64,000 nt of DNA from Lampropedia aestuarii (GTDB taxonomy: Bacteria > Pseudomonadota > Gammaproteobacteria > Burkholderiales > Burkholderiaceae_C): the NCBI RefSeq assembly GCF_004803635.1, contig NZ_SSWX01000010.1, positions 1 through 64,000 on the forward strand. The letters run 5' to 3'. The position numbers and the translations under genes are program-made. The notes below the pieces were generated by a model, which did not search any database, was not told where the DNA came from, and saw nothing but the letters and a program-made list of their open reading frames with translations. This document shows, piece by piece, positions 33,799-48,428 of the stretch; position 1 is the first letter of the stretch, and every line of letters starts with the position of its first letter.

Positions 33799-33886
33799 AG
33801 CGGCGGCAAGGTGAAAAGCCTTGTTTTGTAAAAACTGAACTGGTTTTTAAGATCTTTTAAGAACTCTTATTTTGATTGGACGCGAT

Positions 33887-36085
33887 ATGTCATCTGCCAC
33901 CGTACACGCCATTCGTCCGAATGATGAGTCTGCTGCCAAAGTGGTAGGTCAATCGCCTGCCAGCAAAGAACAGACCGATTTGGACTACCACGCTCTGAAC
34001 GCCATGCTCAACCTGTTTGGGCCCAATGGCGAGATCCAGCTTGACAAAGACCGCTTGGCTGCGCGCCAGTATTTCTTGCAGCATGTGAACCAAAACACCG
34101 TGTTTTTCCATAATTTGAAGGAAAAACTCGACTACTTGGTCGAAAAAGGCTACTACGAAGGCCAAGTGCTGGAGCAGTACAGCTTTGCCTTCATCCAGAA
34201 ACTGTGGGATGCCGCTTGGGCCCATAAATTCCGTTTCCCCACGTTCCTGGGCGCGTTCAAGTACTACACCAGCTACACGCTCAAAACTTTTGATGGCAAG
34301 CGTTACCTGGAGCGCTATGAAGACCGTGTGTGCATGGTGGCCTTGGCGCTGGCGCAAGGCAATGAGCAAATGGCGCTGGAGTTGATGAATGAAATCATCA
34401 CCGGCCGCTTCCAACCTGCCACGCCGACTTTCCTGAACTGCGGTAAAAAACAACGCGGTGAGCTGGTTTCGTGCTTTTTGCTGCGTATTGAAGACAATAT
34501 GGAGTCCATTGGCCGCAGTATCAACTCGGCGCTGCAACTCTCCAAACGCGGTGGCGGCGTCGCGTTCTGCCTGACCAATATCCGTGAAGCGGGCGCACCG
34601 ATCAAGCACATCGAGAACCAGTCTTCGGGCGTGATCCCGATCATGAAACTGCTCGAAGATGCGTTTTCCTACGCGAACCAGCTGGGTGCACGCCAGGGGG
34701 CAGGTGCGGTGTACATGAGTGCGCACCACCCAGACATTCTGAAGTTTCTGGACACCAAGCGTGAAAACGCCGACGAGAAAATCCGCATCAAGACCTTGTC
34801 GCTGGGCGTGGTGATTCCGGATATCACCTTCGAGTTGGCCAAGAACAACGAGGACATGTACCTGTTCTCGCCGTATGACGTGCAGCGCGTTTATGGCCTG
34901 CCGATGTCGGATATTTCGGTCAGCGAAAAATACCGCGAAATGGTGGACAACCCCCAAATTCGCAAAAAGAAAATCAACGCGCGCGAGTTCTTCCAGACCC
35001 TGGCAGAAATCCAGTTTGAGTCGGGCTACCCCTACATCATGTTCGAGGATACGGTCAACCGTGCCAATCCGATCAAGGGCCGCATCAATATGAGCAATCT
35101 GTGCTCAGAAATTTTGCAGGTCAATACCCCATCGGTGTATAACGAAGACTTGGGCTACGAGACCATTGGAAAGGACATTTCCTGCAATCTGGGCTCGCTC
35201 AATATCGCCAAAACCATGGATTCGCCCGATTTTGCCAAGACGGTCGAAGTGGCCATTCGCGCGCTGTCCTCGGTGTCGGACCAGAGCCATATCAGCTCCG
35301 TGCCTTCGATTGAAAAGGGCAATGACGATTCGCACGCGATTGGCCTGGGTCAAATGAACCTGCACGGCTACCTGGCACGTGAGAAGATTTACTACGGCAG
35401 TGAAGAAGGCATCGACTTCACCGACCTGTACTTCTACACCATCACCTACCACGCAATCAAGGCCTCGAACCGCATTGCGATGGAGACTGGCACGACCTTC
35501 AAAGGCTTTGCCGATTCCAAATACGCCAGCGGCGAGTATTTCGACAAGTACATCTTCCAGAAATACGAGCCCAAAACGCAGAAAGTGCGTGAGCTGTTTC
35601 TGAAATCCGGCATTGCGATTCCAACGCAGGACGACTGGAAAGCGCTCAAAGCCTCGGTGCAAGAGCACGGCATTTACAACCAGAACCTGCAGGCCATCCC
35701 GCCAACAGGCTCGATCTCCTATATCAACAACTCCACCTCGAGTATCCACCCGATCGTGGCCAAGATCGAGATCCGCAAAGAAGGCAAGGTCGGCCGCGTT
35801 TACTACCCAGCGCCCTATCTGGCACAAGACAATCTGGATTACTACCAGGATGCCTATGAGATTGGCCCTGAGAAAATCATCGACACCTATGCGGCGGCCA
35901 CCAAGCACGTCGATCAGGGCCTGTCTTTGACACTGTTCTTCCGTGACACAGCCACCACCCGTGACGTGAACAAAGCGCAAATCTACGCATGGCGCAAAGG
36001 CATCAAAACCATTTACTACATCCGCCTGCGCCAAATGGCGCTGGAGGGCACCGAGGTGGAAGGCTGCGTGTCCTGCTCCCTGTAA
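33887..36085 (+). CDS. nrdE: Class Ib ribonucleoside-diphosphate reductase alpha subunit
   Basis: 732 aa, near normal NrdE length. Reduces ribonucleoside diphosphates to deoxy forms with Nrd[23 protein letters not shown] carries an active-site cysteine; NLCSEI holds the second; the radical-transfer tyrosine pair is in TIYYIRLRQ. The C-terminus EGCVSCSL carries the CxxC that NrdH reduces. No N-terminal ATP cone is present, as expected for class Ib. An upstream TTG start is also possible; the ATG at 33887 is preferred. nrdF is not adjacent: about 2 kb with three unrelated genes intervenes. Confidence 0.97.
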
Positions 36086-36291
36086 AGTCTGGGGCAATAG
36101 TTGGCTAGCTCATGGCAAGGCCCATTCATCTATTAGAGTACTGATACCGACGGATTTCAAACGGATTCTTTGCGCATCAAGGCGTGCGGTGCATGCACCG
36201 CGCAGCTGGCACAGGGAATTCATGCTTTGCTGAACACGGGGGGCGGTCTCCCGATCTGATCATTTCACTTGATTTCAAAAGGGCTGATTCC

Positions 36292-37272
36292 ATGCGCAAT
36301 CTCACTGTTAATCGTCGTCAAGTACTGTTGGCTGCCACCCTGGCTTCGGTCGCTGCCGCTCAGCCAGCCAGGCTGTGGGCCGCTGCCCCTAAGGCAGGCC
36401 AGCAAGCGCTGGCCTACTACGTCACGCCGGTGGGCGACTACCAGGTGACGGCGTTGCTCGACCGCACGATGGCGATGCCAAGCGACCAATTGCTGGCCGG
36501 AGCCTCGCCAGAGCAAATCCGCGCTTGGCTGGCTGCGCGTGCGCGCAGCGTGCCTACGCCGACCTCATTGAATTCGTTCTTGATCAATACCGGCTCTGAG
36601 CTGCTGTTGGTTGACAGCGGCGGTGGCGAGTTGATGGGCGCTGGCGGTGCGTCGCTGCAGCCCACCTTGCAGCGCGCAGGCTACCAGAATGCGCAGATCG
36701 ACAAGGTCTTGCTGACGCATTTGCATGTCGACCACATAGGCGGCATCAGCCAGGATGGCAAAGCGCGGTTTGAGAATGCCGAGCTGTGGGTGCCGCAAGT
36801 CGAGCTCGATTACTGGTTGAGTGATGCAGAACGCGACAAAGTGCCTGAGGCGCAGCGCGATGCGTTTGAACGTGCCCGCACAGCGATTGCTCCTTACCAA
36901 GAAGCCAAGCGTTTGCGCGCTTTCCAATGGGGAGACGAAGTCGCGCCTGGCGTGCGTGCAGTTGACCTGAGCGGCCACACACCCGGTCACACCGGCTTTG
37001 ATGTGCAGCGCAATGGTGAGCGGCTGCTGATCTGGGGCGATGTGGTCCATGTGCAGGACGTGCAGTTTGACCACCCCGACATCACGATTGCCTTTGACAT
37101 TGACCAGGCGGCTGCCAAATCGCGCCGTTTGGCCACCTTCAAAGACGCTGCAAGTGGCGGTTACCGCGTCGCTGGCATGCACATGGCATTCCCTGGCATT
37201 GGCCATGTACGCGCCAAAGGCCAGGACGCTTATGAGTGGCTGCCGGAGTCGTTCTCTGCACAAATCAATTAA
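36292..37272 (+). CDS. Exported metallo-beta-lactamase-fold hydrolase
   Basis: 326 aa. N-terminus NRRQVLLAATLASVAAA looks like a twin-arginine signal peptide, so the folded metalloprotein is probably exported by Tat. Zinc motif LTHLHVDHIGG (HxHxDH), then GHTPGHTGF, WGDVVH (bridging Asp) and GMHMAFPGIGH. Matches the quorum-quenching/hydrolase-like MBL group, substrate unknown. The start at 36292 opens the signal peptide; upstream codons have no similarity. It sits between nrdE and nrdF with its own 200-bp upstream region, so may be independently transcribed. A second MBL protein with HAHTDH lies at 55213-56148. Confidence 0.88.
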   Translation: MRNLTVNRRQVLLAATLASVAAAQPARLWAAAPKAGQQALAYYVTPVGDYQVTALLDRTMAMPSDQLLAGASPEQIRAWLAARARSVPTPTSLNSFLINTGSELLLVDSGGGELMGAGGASLQPTLQRAGYQNAQIDKVLLTHLHVDHIGGISQDGKARFENAELWVPQVELDYWLSDAERDKVPEAQRDAFERARTAIAPYQEAKRLRAFQWGDEVAPGVRAVDLSGHTPGHTGFDVQRNGERLLIWGDVVHVQDVQFDHPDITIAFDIDQAAAKSRRLATFKDAASGGYRVAGMHMAFPGIGHVRAKGQDAYEWLPESFSAQIN

Positions 37273-37301
37273 GCATGTGCGTTTTTTCACAATAGAGTTG
37301 T

Positions 37302-37679
37302 ATGCCTCAAGTCCATCTCGAATATTCGGCCAATCTGCCTATCGATGCCGCCAAAGTGCTCAAGGCCGTGAACGCGGCCTTGTTTGCCACTGGCCAATTC
37401 AAGTTGCCGCAAGACATCAAAAGCCGCGCACAGGCGTTTGACGCCTTTGTGGTTGGCGACGACTTGCCTCACCAGGCCTTTGTGCATCTGCGCGTAGCCG
37501 TGATTGATGGCCGCAGTGTCGAGGTGCGCAAAGCCATTGCGGATGCCGCTTTGGCAGCGCTGCAAGTGGCCCACGACTGGCAGGCCTTGCCACTGCAAGT
37601 GCAACTGGGCGCTGAAGTGCATGAAATCACGTTGGCAACCTACGCGCGCGCCATCACCACGCCCCAAGTGGCAGTCTAA
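37302..37679 (+). CDS. 5-carboxymethyl-2-hydroxymuconate isomerase-like tautomerase
   Basis: 125 aa. Begins MPQVHLEYSANLP, with the N-terminal proline that acts as catalytic base in the tautomerase superfamily after Met removal. Length and pattern (AFVHLRVAVIDGRS) match the CHMI (HpaF/HpcD) family of homoprotocatechuate degradation. None of the other homoprotocatechuate genes are nearby, so its cellular role here is uncertain. Located between the MBL gene and a GNAT gene, 30 bp and 26 bp gaps. Confidence 0.85.
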   Translation: MPQVHLEYSANLPIDAAKVLKAVNAALFATGQFKLPQDIKSRAQAFDAFVVGDDLPHQAFVHLRVAVIDGRSVEVRKAIADAALAALQVAHDWQALPLQVQLGAEVHEITLATYARAITTPQVAV

Positions 37680-37705
37680 ATCAATCATTATTCAAGGAGG
37701 GTGTG

Positions 37706-37993
37706 ATGCCTGAAGTGCGCAACAACACGGCCGCTGGCCGCTATGAGATTTACTTGGACGATGGCACAGAAGCCGGCTTTGCCGACTACCGCGTGCGTGG
37801 CAAAGAGGTCGAGCTGCCGCACACGGTCGTCAAGCCCGAATTCAATGGCCAAGGTCTGGCCGGGCAATTGGTGCAGCGGGCTTTGGAGGATATTCAGGCC
37901 AACGGCCAATGTGTGGTCCCTTCTTGCTCTTATGTGGCCGCCTATATTCAGCGCAAACCTCAGTGGCAAAGCCTGCTTTGCAAGCTGGACTGA
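37706..37993 (+). CDS. Small GNAT-like N-acetyltransferase (YjdJ type)
   Basis: 95 aa. Matches the minimal GNAT proteins: GRYEIYLDDGTEAGFADYRV, then the acetyl-CoA loop HTVVKPEFNGQGLAGQLVQRAL (a Q/GxGxxG/A form) and CSYVAAYIQRKPQW. AAGGAGG lies 5 nt before the ATG at 37706, which decides it over a GTG one codon upstream. Such small acetyltransferases act on unknown small molecules or proteins. Precedes nrdF by about 100 bp. Confidence 0.88.
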   Translation: MPEVRNNTAAGRYEIYLDDGTEAGFADYRVRGKEVELPHTVVKPEFNGQGLAGQLVQRALEDIQANGQCVVPSCSYVAAYIQRKPQWQSLLCKLD

Positions 37994-38088
37994 GTTGCCA
38001 CTGGTGTATTTTTGATGGGGTGCGTTGCTGGTATGAATCTATAGCGGTGTTGGCAGCGGCCCTGGTCTTTTTTCTTCTGTGATTTTGA

Positions 38089-39087
<999 letters not shown>

Positions 39088-41568: not shown

Positions 41569-42012
41569 TTACTGCATGACCACGCTATAGCGGATATCTG
41601 CAGCCGCACCTGCTGTCAGATCGCCTGGTTTGACGTTTCGAAAAGCATTTTCCTCATCCGCACCTGCTTTGGCCACTTCACTCACTTTTGCCAGCAGGTC
41701 TTCAGGGCTGATGCCTGATTGCGGATTGAGTTTGACGACAAACTTGCCGTCAGAGGCAATCGAATTGACGGAGTTACCGCCCGTCAGCTCTGAGACGGTA
41801 TAGCTGCCTAATGGCAGGCCCGCTGCCTGTAGTTTGATGATGGATCTGGCGGCGGCGTGCAATGCGCTGGTGCGGCCGTAGTTGCTGCTGCTATGGCCGC
41901 CGGGGCCTTGAAACTCCACAAGAATAGATGCAGCTGTTTGGGCGTGTCCCGCGCTAAGAAGGCTGGTGCTGCAAGCCAATGCGACCAAGGTGGTAAGAAG
42001 AATCTTTTTCAT
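41569..42012 (-). CDS. Secreted stand-alone M20 peptidase dimerisation (lid) domain
   Basis: 147 aa. A Sec signal peptide (LLTTLVALACSTSLLSAGHA) is followed by a sequence that resembles only the dimerisation domain of M20 zinc peptidases: VEFQGPGGHSSSNYGRTSAL, the helix HAAARSIIKL, YTVSELTGGNSVNSIA and KFVVKLNPQ. The catalytic domain and its zinc ligands (HxD, D, EE) are absent. It lies 23 bp downstream of a complete M20 lipoprotein peptidase on the same strand, so both are probably cotranscribed. It may pair with or modulate that enzyme, or be a remnant under selection; the ORF is intact with a good start. Function unknown. Confidence 0.85.
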   Translation of the reverse strand: MKKILLTTLVALACSTSLLSAGHAQTAASILVEFQGPGGHSSSNYGRTSALHAAARSIIKLQAAGLPLGSYTVSELTGGNSVNSIASDGKFVVKLNPQSGISPEDLLAKVSEVAKAGADEENAFRNVKPGDLTAGAAADIRYSVVMQ

Positions 42013-42035
42013 AGTAGTACCTGAGGTGTTGGTGC

Positions 42036-43793
42036 TTATTGAACTTCGCGGGTGCGTGCGCCGATAGGGCCGACGGCAGGCTCAATGACGCTGCCATCTG
42101 CCAAGTGGTAGCCAGACGCAATGAGAACGGCAGTCAAGGCGCGCTGGATGCGTTTCGTTTCTATGGCTGGGTCGCCCTTGGTTCCCCATTCCCAGAAGGC
42201 ATGCGTGCCTGCGACCACCGCATTGGAGCCCAGTGACCAGTTGTAGGTAGGCACACCGGTATTGGCTGGAACGTTGTCATTGAGGCTGGTGGAGCCACTT
42301 GGCACTTTTTCTGCCATATCCACATCGGCTGCGCGCGCAGCTTGCCAGCCCGCTTGCAGCGCGAGGTTGGCGGTGTCGCCGTTGACGAACGCCGGGCGCA
42401 AGCCATACCACATTTGCTCAATAGAAACGGCTTGTTGCACGCCGTCTGCTTGACCCCAGCGCTGGTTTTCAGCTGTCATGCCTGCCACGAACGTCGGCTC
42501 GATGCTTGCGCGCACTTCGTTGAGGGTTTCGGTGCGCTCGGAGCGCATATCGACCAGCAGCGTGCAGCTAGGGATCACATCAGAGCCGAGCTGCGGCGAT
42601 TCACAGCTGGCCTGGCCTACGGTGTAGGTGGTTTTCAAGGCGTCGCTGCGCAACTCAGAAGGTGTTTTGATATCGGCAATGCGCGCAATGGTGGCGGCCA
42701 TGGCTTCAACCGGATTTGGCCCACTGCCTGGAATGGCCGGTGCCTTGAACTTCATCTCAAAACGATAACTGCCCGTGAAATTGATAGTGCCACCGCCCTC
42801 AGAGCCGAAGTTCGTGACAAAATTCAGCGGATTGGAGCCCGTGCCCAGATCTTGGTCAAAACCATACAGCTGCTTCATGCCCGCGAGGTTGCCTTTGCCT
42901 TCTTCTCCACCGGTTCCGCAAATCCACACGTCATACACTGGCTGCAACTTGTATTTTTTGAACATATGCGCCAGCGTGAACAGGGCAGACGTATTGCTCA
43001 TGGCATCAGAGTAGCCTGGTACATAGATGCGTACACCGCCACCTTCACGGGCCGCCTTTTCATTGGCAAACCATTTTCTTGCTTGCGCATATTGAGCGTC
43101 TTCAATGATGCGACCGTTGCTGTCAAATTGCAGCTGCGTCTCGATGGCTGCAAGCTCCTGGGGTGTCTTCACCACCGGCTCGGTGAGGGGTTGAAGCCTA
43201 ATTGGCAGATAGGGGTTGCTCTCAGGAGGCAGAACCTCTGGGTTGACCACGTCGATGTGTGACTCAATCAGCACCTTCGGATATTGGCCGTTGTAGGCTT
43301 TGGCGTTGGGGCTGCTTGAATAGCTGCCCTTGATTTCAACGCAGGCGTTATAAACCGGCAGCCCATCCACTATTTGGACATCAGAGCCTGGTAGCAGGCC
43401 CGCGGCATTGGTCTTCACTTCGCTGGCGTTAAACCCCCATTCATTGAGCATGCGCTTGTGTATTTCAGCCGCCATGCGGTGTTCATAGCGCGATGGAGAG
43501 GCAATGCGCACCAGTTCCATATGCTGGTTGAAACGCGCCTTCTCTCCCGCTGGCGTATTCAACTCAGCGGCGATGGCTTGGATTTTGGCGTCGGCGATAA
43601 TTTTCTCTGCGGCATTGGCAACCAGTGGATCAACGCCAGGAACGCCATTGATGATTTGGGTCGCTTGCGGCCTTTGGGGGACTGGGGGCGAGGTGCTGTC
43701 ACTGTCGCTACCTCCACCGCAAGCACTGAGCAGCACGGCAACTGATGCGGCACTCCATAAAGGGGAAAAGCGAAAGGCTGGGGCAGTAGTCAT
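42036..43793 (-). CDS. M20-family zinc peptidase, lipoprotein
   Basis: 585 aa. Starts with a lipoprotein signal (VAVLLSACGGG, lipidated Cys 25), preceded by an AAAGGAAAG ribosome site. M20 zinc residues: H179 and D181 in ESHIDVV, bridging D263 (YSDAMSN), base E297 and zinc E298 in GTGGEEGKG, and a late His in AGTHAFWEW. The dimerisation domain (~345-450) is present but lacks the usual GGHSS, having PAIPGSGPNPVEAM instead. Predicted to cleave peptides or hydrolyse an amide in the periplasm at the membrane. The 3' neighbour encodes a separate secreted domain with the missing GGHSS motif. Substrate unknown. Confidence 0.9.
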   Translation of the reverse strand: MTTAPAFRFSPLWSAASVAVLLSACGGGSDSDSTSPPVPQRPQATQIINGVPGVDPLVANAAEKIIADAKIQAIAAELNTPAGEKARFNQHMELVRIASPSRYEHRMAAEIHKRMLNEWGFNASEVKTNAAGLLPGSDVQIVDGLPVYNACVEIKGSYSSSPNAKAYNGQYPKVLIESHIDVVNPEVLPPESNPYLPIRLQPLTEPVVKTPQELAAIETQLQFDSNGRIIEDAQYAQARKWFANEKAAREGGGVRIYVPGYSDAMSNTSALFTLAHMFKKYKLQPVYDVWICGTGGEEGKGNLAGMKQLYGFDQDLGTGSNPLNFVTNFGSEGGGTINFTGSYRFEMKFKAPAIPGSGPNPVEAMAATIARIADIKTPSELRSDALKTTYTVGQASCESPQLGSDVIPSCTLLVDMRSERTETLNEVRASIEPTFVAGMTAENQRWGQADGVQQAVSIEQMWYGLRPAFVNGDTANLALQAGWQAARAADVDMAEKVPSGSTSLNDNVPANTGVPTYNWSLGSNAVVAGTHAFWEWGTKGDPAIETKRIQRALTAVLIASGYHLADGSVIEPAVGPIGARTREVQ

Positions 43794-43951
43794 TGTCTGT
43801 ATCTTTCCTTTAGAAGTGAATTGGCATGCAAGGCGCGCGCCATAGCCGCAGGCAGGCCACTCAATCGGCACAAAGGGCCATGAGTGTTAACAATCTGCGG
43901 ACAAAGCCTTGTGGATCATAAATAGCCCGCTGGAGGATTGACAACGCGCAG

Positions 43952-44294: not shown

Positions 44295-44981
44295 TCAACT
44301 GCGCTGCAAGATCGAGGTGCGAAATGACTCGATATGCTCGGCCACCAGCTTGGCTGCAGCCTCACCATCATGGGCGGCCAACGTATCGACGATGAGGCTG
44401 TGCTCGTCCAGGATGTGCTGCATATGGCCCGCTGCAGTCATGGAGATGGCCCAAAAGCGCTGAGCGCGGGCATGCAAAACGCGCAGAACATCGATCAGAA
44501 CCGGGTTGGCACAGGCCAGCGCGATGTATTCGTGAAATACCCGGTCAGCTTGCATGCAGCCAACGATGTCGCGCTCGTGCATGGCCGCTTCAAACTGGCG
44601 CACGCTGCTGTGCAGCGCATCGATCTGGTCGGCGGTGATGCGCTGAGCGGCCAGGCGCGCGCACAGCGTTTCATTGACCAGGCGCACATCAATCAGGTTC
44701 AGAGCGTCATCAATCGACAAGGGGGCCACCAGCACGCCCTTGCGCGGCAGAATTTGCACCAGGCCTTCAGTGGCCAGGCGATGCAGCGCGTGGTTGATGG
44801 GCGTGCGGCCATAGCCCAGGCTCTCCATCACCGCGGCCGTGTTCAGGTATTCGCCTGGTTTGTATTGCAGCGTGACGATGCGATTTTGCAAGGTCAGGTA
44901 TGCACTTTCATTTTGCGAAATATCAGCAGGCGCAGCCAATTCGGTCAAAAGGGAGGCAGTTAAAGCAGGGGATTCGGCCAT
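44295..44981 (-). CDS. GntR/FCD-type transcriptional regulator
   Basis: 228 aa. Winged helix around residues 30-90 (LQYKPGEYLNTAAVMESLGYGRTPINHALHRL) and a helical FCD domain (RLVNETLCARLAAQR, DRVFHEYIALACANPVLI, HSLIVDTLAAHD). Divergent from the TRAP/DUF2848/amidase genes and thus their likely regulator. A 12-bp palindrome (GTGAAATTTCAC) lies in the intergenic region. Distinct in sequence from the GntR at 13958. The effector is probably a carboxylic acid. Confidence 0.92.
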   Translation of the reverse strand: MAESPALTASLLTELAAPADISQNESAYLTLQNRIVTLQYKPGEYLNTAAVMESLGYGRTPINHALHRLATEGLVQILPRKGVLVAPLSIDDALNLIDVRLVNETLCARLAAQRITADQIDALHSSVRQFEAAMHERDIVGCMQADRVFHEYIALACANPVLIDVLRVLHARAQRFWAISMTAAGHMQHILDEHSLIVDTLAAHDGEAAAKLVAEHIESFRTSILQRS

Positions 44982-45189
44982 GGGCGAGCTGTCACGGTTG
45001 TCAAAGCGGGAGGCGAAAGTGCCAATGCAAGCGAGCGGTGCACGGCTAGGAAGCCAAGCAAAGCCAGTCCTGTCATGGGATTGTTGTCAGGCAATGGCCT
45101 AATTGTAGAGTGGGATTGCCTGAAAACAAGCGATGCATGCCATGCAGTGTACTTGGCATATTCATTGCTGAAATAAGGATAACCCTATA

Positions 45190-45201
45190 GTGAAATTTCA
45201 C
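45190..45201. promoter_or_regulatory. 12-bp palindrome GTGAAATTTCAC
   Basis: Perfect 12-bp palindrome between the divergent GntR (start 44981) and TRAP dctP (start 45357) genes, flanked by AT-rich sequence. Candidate operator for the adjacent GntR regulator. The rest of 44982-45356 shows no gene. Confidence 0.5.
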
Positions 45202-45356
45202 AATAAGGGCAATAATGCGCTAAATTGTTAATCGAAGCGGTGTTGCGTTCATGGAAATAGGCCTTGACGCCCCAAGCCGTATCAGTACGGCGCACTGGTT
45301 TCGTGCAATTGATGTCTTAATCGCACCACTTTGGTGGTTCCTGTCTGGAGTATTGA

Positions 45357-46403
45357 ATGCCTCGTTTTTTCTTTTCCTCGCTGATCGTTGCTGCTGCCGC
45401 ACTGACCGGCTCCGTCATGGCGCAAGACTATCCTGCAACCAAAGTCAAAGTGGTGGGCGCTTTGAGCAATCTGAGCCTCTACAACGATTATGAAAAACCG
45501 TTCTGGACCACCGTGATCCCAGAAGCTTCGGGCGGCAAGGTCACAGCCGATATCAAAGGCTTTAACGAAATGGGCTTGAAAGGCCCGGAAGTGCTGCGTC
45601 TGATGTCGCAAGGCGTGATTGAGTTTGGGACGTCCACACTGGCGTATTTCGCCTCTGACAACCCGATCAACGAAGCGATTGACCTGGCTGGTCTGGCCCC
45701 TAATGTGGAAGACGCACGCAAAATCACCGACGCCTATTTGCCTGCCTACCAGAAGTTCTACGACAAAAGCGGCGTGAAAGTGCTGGGCCTGTCCACCTAC
45801 CCAGCACAGGTGCTGTTTTGCAACGGCAATTTTGGCGGTCTGGCAGACTTGAAAGGCAAGAAAGTGCGCACCAGCAGCCGCACCCAGGCCGAGTTCGTTG
45901 AGGCGTTTGGTGGCACCAGCGTGACCATGCCTTTCGGTGAAGTTGTGCCGGCGCTGCAAAACAAGGTGGTCGATTGTGCGATCACCGGCTCGCTGTCGGG
46001 CTTTGATGCCAAATGGTACGAAGTGGCCACGCATTTGTATGCCTTGCCAATCAACTGGAACCAGCAAATCCATGCCGTCAATGCCAAGGCCTGGGACAAG
46101 CTGAACCCGCAAGTGCAAGAGCTGATCAGCGCCAAGTACGAAGGCCTGATCAACGACATCTGGACTGCTGCGGCTGAGCAGACCGAGCAAGGCTACGCTT
46201 GCAACACGGGGGGTGATACCTGCAGCGCTGAAGTCAAAGGCAAGATGACCCTGGTCACGCCAAGCGATGCCGACAAGGCCTTGCTGAAAGAAACCTTCTC
46301 TAGCGTGGTGCTGCCCAAGTGGGCCGCGCGTTGCTCGGCCGAATGCGTGAGCGACTTCAACGCCACGATTGGCCAGATCACGGGCTACACCGCGGCCAAG
46401 TAA
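45357..46403 (+). CDS. TRAP transporter substrate-binding protein (DctP family)
   Basis: 348 aa with a signal peptide (FFFSSLIVAAAALTGSVMA). DctP core LKGKKVRTSSRTQAEFVEAFGGTSVTMPF, with a ligand-binding Arg, and AITGSLSGFD. Four cysteines near the C-terminus (ACNTGGDTC and ARCSAEC) may form disulfides in the periplasm, an unusual detail in this family. First gene of a TRAP set; a strong stem-loop follows it. Regulator GntR is divergent. The downstream DUF2848 and amidase genes suggest that an amide or hydroxy acid is imported. Confidence 0.92.
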   Translation: MPRFFFSSLIVAAAALTGSVMAQDYPATKVKVVGALSNLSLYNDYEKPFWTTVIPEASGGKVTADIKGFNEMGLKGPEVLRLMSQGVIEFGTSTLAYFASDNPINEAIDLAGLAPNVEDARKITDAYLPAYQKFYDKSGVKVLGLSTYPAQVLFCNGNFGGLADLKGKKVRTSSRTQAEFVEAFGGTSVTMPFGEVVPALQNKVVDCAITGSLSGFDAKWYEVATHLYALPINWNQQIHAVNAKAWDKLNPQVQELISAKYEGLINDIWTAAAEQTEQGYACNTGGDTCSAEVKGKMTLVTPSDADKALLKETFSSVVLPKWAARCSAECVSDFNATIGQITGYTAAK

Positions 46404-46423
46404 CCGGAGCCGATGCCATCAGA

Positions 46424-46462
46424 CCTGCCGCGTAATTCTCACGAAATTGCGCGGCAGGTTTT
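46424..46462 (+). terminator. Stem-loop with T run after TRAP binding-protein gene
   Basis: CCTGCCGCGTAATT (46424-46437) pairs with AATTGCGCGGCAGG (46445-46458; one G-T wobble), loop of 7 nt, followed by TTTTA. As an intra-operon terminator it would lower dctQ/dctM expression relative to the binding protein, or it may end the transcript if dctQ has its own promoter. Confidence 0.75.
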
Positions 46463-46532
46463 ATGGTTTGCACCTACGCTGAACACGGCCTGTTGAGACC
46501 GTGGTAATTTCAATTCAACAGACTTCTCGACT

Positions 46533-47144
46533 ATGACGACTTCTGTGTCATTGTTGGCCCGCCTCTATGGTTGGGCCAACCAAATATCGCGTTATGCGGT
46601 GTGGTTTGGTGGTGCCATCACCATTGCCAGCGTATTGCTGGTCAGTTTTGATGTGCTGGCACGCAAGTTTTTTGGCTGGAATCTGGGCGGCGCCGATGAG
46701 CTCTCCAGCTACGCCTTTGCAATCAGCACGACCTGGGCGTTTGCCTTTGCATCGCTGCAGCGCGCCAACGTGCGCGTAGACGTGCTCTACCACTTTTTGC
46801 CGGTTCGCATTGCCGCCGTGGTCGACTGGCTGGCGCTGGTGGGCCTGGGCGTTTTCATTGCCTTCTTGACTTTTTATGCCAAAGACCTGGTGCTGGCGTC
46901 CTATCTGCAAGGCTCGACCGCCAACAGCACGATGGCCACGCCGCTGTGGATTCCACAAGGCCTGTGGTTTATCGGCCTGGTGTGGATGTGCTTGGTGCTG
47001 GCCTTGATGCTGATTCGCGCATCACTGGCCTTGGTGACCGGCGATATCAGCACCCTCAACGCCATTTGCGGCGTGCGCTCTGCGCAAGAGGAAGCTGAAG
47101 AAGAAGCCGCCAATGGCGAGCGCATGGTAAATGGGAGCCGCTAA
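46533..47144 (+). CDS. TRAP transporter small permease (DctQ family)
   Basis: 203 aa with four membrane helices. RKFFGWNLGGADELSSYAFAISTTWAFAFASLQRANVRVDVL is the DctQ consensus region. The tail after residue ~175 is charged and acidic (QEEAEEEAANGE). Stop (47142-47144) directly abuts the dctM start at 47145. Works with the DctP and DctM neighbours. Confidence 0.92.
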   Translation: MTTSVSLLARLYGWANQISRYAVWFGGAITIASVLLVSFDVLARKFFGWNLGGADELSSYAFAISTTWAFAFASLQRANVRVDVLYHFLPVRIAAVVDWLALVGLGVFIAFLTFYAKDLVLASYLQGSTANSTMATPLWIPQGLWFIGLVWMCLVLALMLIRASLALVTGDISTLNAICGVRSAQEEAEEEAANGERMVNGSR

Positions 47145-48428
47145 ATGGTTGTAACGACTTTGATTGTCTTGCTCGTCCTGATTGGACTGAGCATTCCGGT
47201 GGGCGCGGCTCTGGGCTTGCTGGGCCTGTTTTTGGACCACGAGTTCTCAATGCTGCCGCTCACGCGTGCAATGGGCGAGCTGGCCTGGGGCACGAACAAC
47301 GAGTTCTTGCTGGTGGCGATTCCGCTGTTCATTTTGCTTGGCGAGATTTTGCTGCGCTCGGGCTTTGCCGAGAAGATGTACCACGCGATGAGTCTGTGGC
47401 TGTCGTGGCTGCCAGGCGGTTTGATGCATGCCAATATCGGCGCCTCGACGCTGTTCTCGGCCACCTCGGGCTCCAGCGTGGCAACCGCTGCGACCGTGGG
47501 CACCGTGGCCTTGCCGCAAATCCACAAGCATGGCTACAACGAGCCGCTGTTTTTGGGCAGCTTGGCCGCTGGCGGCACCTTGGGTATTTTGCTGCCGCCA
47601 TCGATCAACCTGGTGATGTATGGCGTGCTGACCAATACCTCGGTGCCCAAGCTGTATCTGGCGGGCATTATTCCGGGCCTGCTGATGGCCGGTTTGTTTG
47701 TACTGACGATCATCGTCGCCTGCCTGATCAAACCGAAATGGGGCGGCAAAAAAGTCCAGGCCAGCTGGGGCGAGCGCTTCAAATCCCTGGTGTATTTGAT
47801 TCCGCCGCTGATCATTTTCTTGCTGGTCGTGGGCTCGATCTATGCCGGTTTGGCCACTCCCACGGAAGCTGCGGCTTTGGGCGTGACAGGCGCTTTGATC
47901 CTGGCTGCTTGCTACGGCCGCCTGACGCTGACCATGCTGCGCGAATCGGTTGAAGGGGCCATGCGTGCCTCGGCGATGATCATGCTGATCGTGATTGCCT
48001 CTGGCTTTTTGAACTTCGTCATGGCTGCGACCGGCATCACCAATGCATTGACCTCAGCGATTGAAGGCCTGGGCTTGTCGCCTGTGATGATGCTGGTGGC
48101 CTTGGTGGTGTTTTATCTGATCTTGGGTTGCTTCATGGAAACCCTGTCAATGATGATCACCACGATCCCAATCGTTGCCCCGATCATGTTTGCGCTGGGT
48201 TACGACCCGATCTGGCTGGGTATTTTGATCATCGTGTTGGTCGAGATGGCCTTGATCACACCACCGGTGGGCCTGAACCTGTTTGTCGTGCAGAGCTTGC
48301 GCAAAGCGGGCTCGATGACTGCCGTGATTATTGGTGCAATGCCATTTGTTGCAGCGATGCTGCTGATGGTGGTGTTGCTGACGCTGCTGCCGGGCATTGC
48401 GCTGTGGCTGCCTAATTTGGCCGGCTAA
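47145..48428 (+). CDS. TRAP transporter large permease (DctM family)
   Basis: 427 aa, about 12 membrane helices. SATSGSSVATAATVGTVALPQI, GILLPPSINLVMYGVLTNTSVPKLYLAG and ITPPVGLNLFVVQSL are DctM hallmarks. Starts immediately after dctQ with no gap. Imports the DctP ligand using the sodium gradient. Downstream, 72 bp away, lies the DUF2848 gene on the same strand. Confidence 0.94.
   Translation: MVVTTLIVLLVLIGLSIPVGAALGLLGLFLDHEFSMLPLTRAMGELAWGTNNEFLLVAIPLFILLGEILLRSGFAEKMYHAMSLWLSWLPGGLMHANIGASTLFSATSGSSVATAATVGTVALPQIHKHGYNEPLFLGSLAAGGTLGILLPPSINLVMYGVLTNTSVPKLYLAGIIPGLLMAGLFVLTIIVACLIKPKWGGKKVQASWGERFKSLVYLIPPLIIFLLVVGSIYAGLATPTEAAALGVTGALILAACYGRLTLTMLRESVEGAMRASAMIMLIVIASGFLNFVMAATGITNALTSAIEGLGLSPVMMLVALVVFYLILGCFMETLSMMITTIPIVAPIMFALGYDPIWLGILIIVLVEMALITPPVGLNLFVVQSLRKAGSMTAVIIGAMPFVAAMLLMVVLLTLLPGIALWLPNLAG

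Follow-up and report, generated by a model that had tools for sequence, protein, structure and literature searches.

A putative heteromeric M20 metallohydrolase in Lampropedia divided between a catalytic lipoprotein and a small exported lid protein

Two adjoining genes of Lampropedia aestuarii encode separately exported proteins that we propose to be one heteromeric M20-type metallohydrolase, in which a small lid subunit gives the catalytic histidine in trans to a larger partner. We put the probability of this reading at about 0.82, in the absence of binding or activity data, and base it on the complete lid fold observed in the small protein, the conserved metal ligands of its partner, the partition of lid residues between the two and their co-inheritance. 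M20 enzymes are hydrolases of a large family, and their lid histidine can act across the homodimer interface; here nature seems to have run the experiment of dividing such a shared active site between two genes. In some bacteria a zinc enzyme appears to have been broken up into a secreted protein that holds the metal site and a second secreted protein, a small detached lid with the missing histidine; neither secreted half should work without the other, a point on which there are no activity data.

The exported lid protein and its M20 partner

The small protein is encoded at positions 41,569 to 42,012 on the minus strand of the window, the 64,000-nucleotide stretch analyzed here, as a stand-alone ORF of 147 aa with an ATG start, not inserted within a catalytic chain. 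Its N terminus reads by eye as a Sec-type signal peptide (residues 1 to 24; 41,941 to 42,012, minus strand), with a KK n-region, a hydrophobic core and cleavage between GHA and Q, and its relatives mostly carry Sec-type signals or similar hydrophobic N termini (alignment, by eye). The M20 dimerization domain (Pfam M20_dimer, PF07687) spans residues 27 to 119 and scores 31.4 bits, above its cut-off of 21; no second Pfam family was found at E values up to 1. An AlphaFold2 model (24 rows; pLDDT 82.9, pTM 0.75) has the beta-alpha-beta-beta-alpha-beta order of a complete lid, and a Foldseek search with that model placed the M20 enzyme PahZ2 (chain 7ljh_A; E = 2.1e-7, 26% identity, TM 0.53 by query length) at the head of the 50 best PDB matches. 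The lid carries a GGHS motif (residues 38 to 41; 41,890 to 41,901, minus strand), whose His40 is the proposed in-trans catalytic histidine, a second lid histidine, His52, within SALHAA (41,857 to 41,859, minus strand), and a GGNSVN motif (residues 78 to 83; 41,764 to 41,781, minus strand), whose Asn83 corresponds to Asn275 of carboxypeptidase G2 (CPG2) in an alignment to 1cg2.

The small gene lies 23 nt downstream of its partner (gap 42,013 to 42,035) on the same strand, probably in one operon, and at the probable starts of the relatives examined the gap ranges from 9 to 41 nt, with a 4-nt overlap at locus L004. The partner is a predicted exported M20 metallohydrolase, without activity data, of 585 aa from its likely start at ATG 43,793 (42,036 to 43,793, minus strand), with an LSAC lipobox; the frame itself is open to GTG 43,871 (42,036 to 43,871, minus strand). 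It falls just under the Pfam cut-offs, at 22.9 against 24.6 for M20 and 19.6 against 21 for M20_dimer, and its membership of the family rests on its motifs and on its PDB match to PahZ2 (7ljh, E = 2.2e-9). The metal ligands and catalytic positions are all present (H179, D181, D263, E297, E298, E332 and H531): H179 and D181 are kept in 65 of the 65 rows with a letter there, D263, E297, E298 and H531 in 66 of 66, and position 332 is Asp or Glu in all 66. Its own lid domain (about residues 338 to 460; 42,414 to 42,782, minus strand) is without GGHS and GG..N and keeps DxR, with Arg417 of VDMRS (42,543 to 42,545, minus strand) corresponding to CPG2 Arg288 as the proposed carboxylate-binding residue. 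The first-pass annotation had described a 147-aa protein with a signal peptide and lid motifs, lacking a catalytic domain, beside a full M20 lipoprotein with catalytic motifs and a lid without GGHSS; both descriptions are borne out, the former by the ORF and its sole Pfam match, PF07687, and the latter by the intact ligands and the lipobox. A partner without GGHS and below the Pfam cut-offs could be a dead M20 pseudo-enzyme serving as a binding protein or scaffold, with the small lid as a decoy or remnant, but we judge this very improbable indeed, given that all seven metal and catalytic positions are conserved and that an invariant motif across lineages is not expected of a remnant.

Outside the Duodenibacillus massiliensis family, a lipobox is plausible in 12 of the 18 Burkholderiales-type partner rows examined. 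A further match, in L065, seems to be spurious, a near-lipobox (AAGC) stands in L059 and L060, and none was seen in the stretch examined of L045, L056 and L066. The Acidobacteria-type rows (L039 to L042, L044, L096 and L098) showed a lipobox in 0 of 7. Partners of the D. massiliensis family have, by eye, ordinary signal peptides, and the two lipobox pattern matches among them (L105 and L114) both lie before the likely start.

Reciprocal partition of lid residues

The lid alignment comprised 36 rows from ordinary M20 relatives, 50 from small proteins and 66 from partners, or 32, 46 and 41 distinct rows, respectively, at less than 95% identity. The rows are related rather than independent, some coming from overlapping loci of one gene, and the ordinary rows favor GGHS because they were collected by similarity to the small protein. 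The GGHS histidine is present in 36/36 ordinary rows and 50/50 small proteins but in 0/66 partners, and the second lid histidine gives the same counts (36/36, 50/50 and 0/66), with the GGxSVN asparagine following at 34/36, 50/50 and 5/66. The arginines run the other way, the DxR Arg being found in 36/36 ordinary rows, 1/50 small proteins and 66/66 partners, and the GSxR Arg likewise in 36/36, 1/50 and 66/66. Among the ordinary relatives a single chain retains each of these residues in 34 to 36 of the 36 rows.

GGH occurs in none of 66 rows across partner residues 340 to 372, any histidine occurs there in only 4 of 66, and the only invariant or nearly invariant histidines in a 21-row alignment are H179 and H531, both metal ligands, so that no cis substitute for the lid histidine is visible. 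A cysteine stands at the first Gly of the ordinary GG..N in 66/66 partners, and another Cys that never varies follows 13 residues later (C397 and C410); the pair is perhaps a disulfide, itself inferred, that staples the emptied loop.

The available portion of a carnosinase review describes Arg288 of the lid of one CPG2 monomer as meeting His229 and Asn275 of the lid of the other (PMC6271292). Set against the ordinary relative L014, the His, Asn and DxR Arg fall by hand count at CPG2 chain positions 207, 253 and 266, which with a constant offset of 22 are His229, Asn275 and Arg288. Judged by alignment alone, the residues split between the two genes are those that stand on opposite monomers in the CPG2 homodimer. 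In a tree of 119 lids, the small and partner rows each formed one side of a branch with 100/100 support; the tree rests on few columns and its bootstrap had not settled, and it fits a single origin for each type of lid without showing which came first.

The same counts bear on a possible inhibitory or regulatory role, in which the small protein would sit at the partner's dimer interface and hold the partner in a monomeric or closed state. A lid domain would be expected to bind lid surfaces, and separate export from the same probable operon is in keeping with such a role, but inhibition does not call for the Asn and both histidines, the catalytic one included, to be kept in 50/50 rows, nor would it lead one to expect the loss of both histidines from 66/66 partners, and we consider it quite unlikely.

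Conservation and co-inheritance of the pair

The small protein and its partner are a conserved two-gene unit with the same arrangement in three lineages. Scanning 399 genomes of the family to which the window belongs with the small protein gave a match in 40, of which 13 hold a stand-alone small gene (15 intact copies and one degenerate, G387:C11), one match being found in the window's own genome; in the other 27 the match lies inside open frames of at least 449 aa, and the loci fetched from these (L014 to L030) are M20-type by blastp. A partner profile scan (E up to 1e-60) returned the same 13 of 399 genomes and 15 copies, each adjoining a small gene by coordinates. The small protein of L002 (genome G384, from the same genus as the window) is identical in sequence to that of Lampropedia puyangensis L031. 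The degenerate copy is a third, frame-broken small gene (L121:3087-3293) in a genome, G387, that also has two intact pairs, and no partner was found in the 6.5 kb around it.

A scan of GTDB contigs with the small protein found 17 loci, with the partner directly upstream in 16, although in L043 and L035 the contig end truncates it, and in L035 its frame is also broken close to that end; the exception is L047, from D. massiliensis. The D. massiliensis family has the partner in 19 of 67 genomes (20 copies, 20/20 beside a small gene by coordinates) and the small gene in 21 of 67 (22 copies, E up to 1e-22), including a match in G949 that was reported with an internal TAA, although in L112 its frame stays open over 153 codons. 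Of 247 genomes in the phylum of the Acidobacterium MAG L042, 4 hold the partner and all four hold the small gene, two of them (G403 and G404) having been known before the scan. The record of L041 is titled as a Cyanobacteria MAG; its genome, G403, falls in the same phylum draw as L042, and the label is probably wrong.

The pair is sparsely distributed at wider scale. A phylum-wide draw gave 1 of 398 genomes, the window's own, and none beyond it; an order-wide draw (E up to 1e-15) gave a match in 14 of 300, stand-alone only in the window's genome and D. massiliensis; in the other genomes the match lay within open frames of 412 to 508 aa. A plasmid collection gave no match to the small protein at E 1e-10, in a search that may omit the window's own and near genomes. 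Only three partner candidates per genome were scored in the 399-genome family scan and the phylum-wide draw, and five in the scan of the L042 phylum, so further partner copies may be missed.

Across all loci examined, a redundant set, 87 have the partner and none of these is without the small gene, while 92 have the small gene, five of them without a full-scoring partner: L043, at a contig end; L047, L072 and L078, all from D. massiliensis; and L124, from G987. In G987 the small gene is intact and only the C-terminal 152 aa of a partner were found upstream, which may be decay or an assembly fault in this 560-contig genome. In the D. massiliensis genome no partner of this type was found, though the small gene is intact, and this orphan (L047:3935-4345), which lies beside DinB-like and transporter-like genes (names by eye), could be a relic or could work with another M20 enzyme. 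Such an orphan, in a genome that also has ordinary M20 enzymes, is in line with the small protein acting elsewhere, by pairing with itself or with other M20 enzymes or by binding a ligand, and sharing an operon with the partner only for expression. We think this unlikely: of the 34 genomes in which the two family scans found the small gene, one is without the partner and one has it truncated, and action elsewhere leaves the reciprocal loss of residues unexplained.

Two trivial origins were ruled out. A chance ORF or annotation artefact is rejected, as three lineages conserve the small protein and its motifs do not vary. For this pair, a single gene broken by a frameshift is excluded by the partner's own lid region, by the start and signal peptide of the small gene and by both genes being open in many genomes; no ORF strongly matching both profiles was found in the loci examined.

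A proposed heteromeric enzyme and its setting

The first-pass annotation had left three options for the small protein, namely, donating or replacing the lid in trans, regulating dimerization or inhibiting the enzyme, and had pointed to a search for lid-only ORFs beside M20 genes and for the pair in relatives; the pair indeed proved to be conserved in three lineages, and of the options the first is strongly favored, with physical donation inferred, the other two not predicting the partition. Three observations favor donation of the lid in trans: the small protein is invariant at the His and Asn, which the partner has lost or does not conserve; the partner retains the Arg that in CPG2 acts from the opposite lid; and the two genes are inherited together. 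We propose that the large lipoprotein would comprise a catalytic domain with two metals and a lid retaining the cis-acting residues, the Arg of DxR, and that the small protein would be a second, detached lid that docks on the partner lid as the two lids do in M20 homodimers, supplying in trans the Asn and the GGHS His, the latter for the oxyanion and stabilization of the transition state. Since both halves are exported separately, assembly would follow export, and the active enzyme would arise only outside the cytoplasm. PahZ2 and other M20 enzymes suggest, by analogy, an amide or peptide substrate bearing a free carboxylate. Complex, stoichiometry, activity and substrate all remain inferences. 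An AlphaFold model of the L. puyangensis L031 pair, fused by reading through the stop (28 rows; mean pLDDT 71.3, pTM 0.59, without an inter-domain error estimate), shows the same order of strands and helices in both lids. Its GGHSS loop and one loop of the active site fall below 50, and it gives no reliable interface and counts neither for nor against one; a Foldseek search with it returned M20 enzymes in poor overall superposition (rmsd 9.4 to the best).

Among the matches listed, PahZ2, a poly(aspartic acid) hydrolase (7ljh), is the solved structure nearest to both proteins in the sequence and fold searches, sharing the M20 fold, the GGHS lid and a DMRS motif in the lid, but its catalytic domain, GGHS, GG..N and DxR are all in one chain. 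The PepV lid has an internal second half that mimics the lid of the other subunit; both lid parts of PepV are in one chain, whereas in the Lampropedia pair the second lid is a separate gene. PepV is described in the available part of its source as monomeric owing to different features of the lid, with lid residues Asn217, His269 and Arg350 (PMC6271292). Homodimeric M20 enzymes (CPG2 1cg2, DapE, aminoacylase-1 and MsAA) resemble the pair in that the lid His acts with the other monomer, and in CPG2 the Asn also acts across monomers, with the Arg coming from the other lid, as far as the accessible sections of the papers go (PMC6271292, PMC13058870); there, identical subunits swap lids, whereas the exchange proposed here is one-way and between unlike subunits. 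The portion at hand of one report states that DapE without its lid has its activity abolished (PMC4012986). A functional parallel comes from aminoacylases, in which the lid His works in trans and a mixture of E157A and H226A variants recovers 13% of wild-type activity via heterodimers, His-deficient and His-bearing subunits being jointly active (PMC13058870, in the part available); those were engineered point variants of full-length subunits, not a natural lid-only protein. Among the matches listed, we found no description of a lid-only M20 subunit in the open-licence literature.

We lean, without great assurance, toward the stronger view that the pair is an obligate natural heteromer, descended from an ancestral homodimer with reciprocal lids that gave rise to a catalytic subunit minus the trans residues and a lid-only subunit minus the cis residues, each inactive alone and assembling only after separate export; the loop of the catalytic subunit is possibly now held by the Cys pair. 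On this view the hydrolase would be kept off in the cytoplasm and its activity would depend on the amount of the small protein. The pair also makes the in-trans role of the lid directly testable, since the two proteins are unlike and expressed separately. Because the partner scores just below the Pfam thresholds and the only match of the small protein is to the dimerization domain, neither would be readily recognised as a half-enzyme, and such split M20 halves are easily missed in annotation.

No larger operon shared across lineages was found in 41 loci (L031 to L047 and L111 to L134, with flanks of unequal length). In the gut lineage, two other gene families (clusters 3 and 4) recur beside the pair at 8 loci each, and two more (clusters 5 and 6) at 5 each. 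Beside the pair in the window, positions 44,295 to 48,428 hold a GntR/FCD regulator (minus strand, Pfam) and a TRAP transporter set (plus strand), the solute-binding protein of which was assigned by Pfam and the two membrane parts by eye; these adjoining TRAP and GntR genes did not recur in the same 41 loci. On the other side, positions 33,872 to 39,087 hold genes that we take, by eye, to resemble two ribonucleotide reductase subunits, and between them lies what is presumably a metallo-beta-lactamase-like exported protein (36,184 to 37,272), together with small ORFs.
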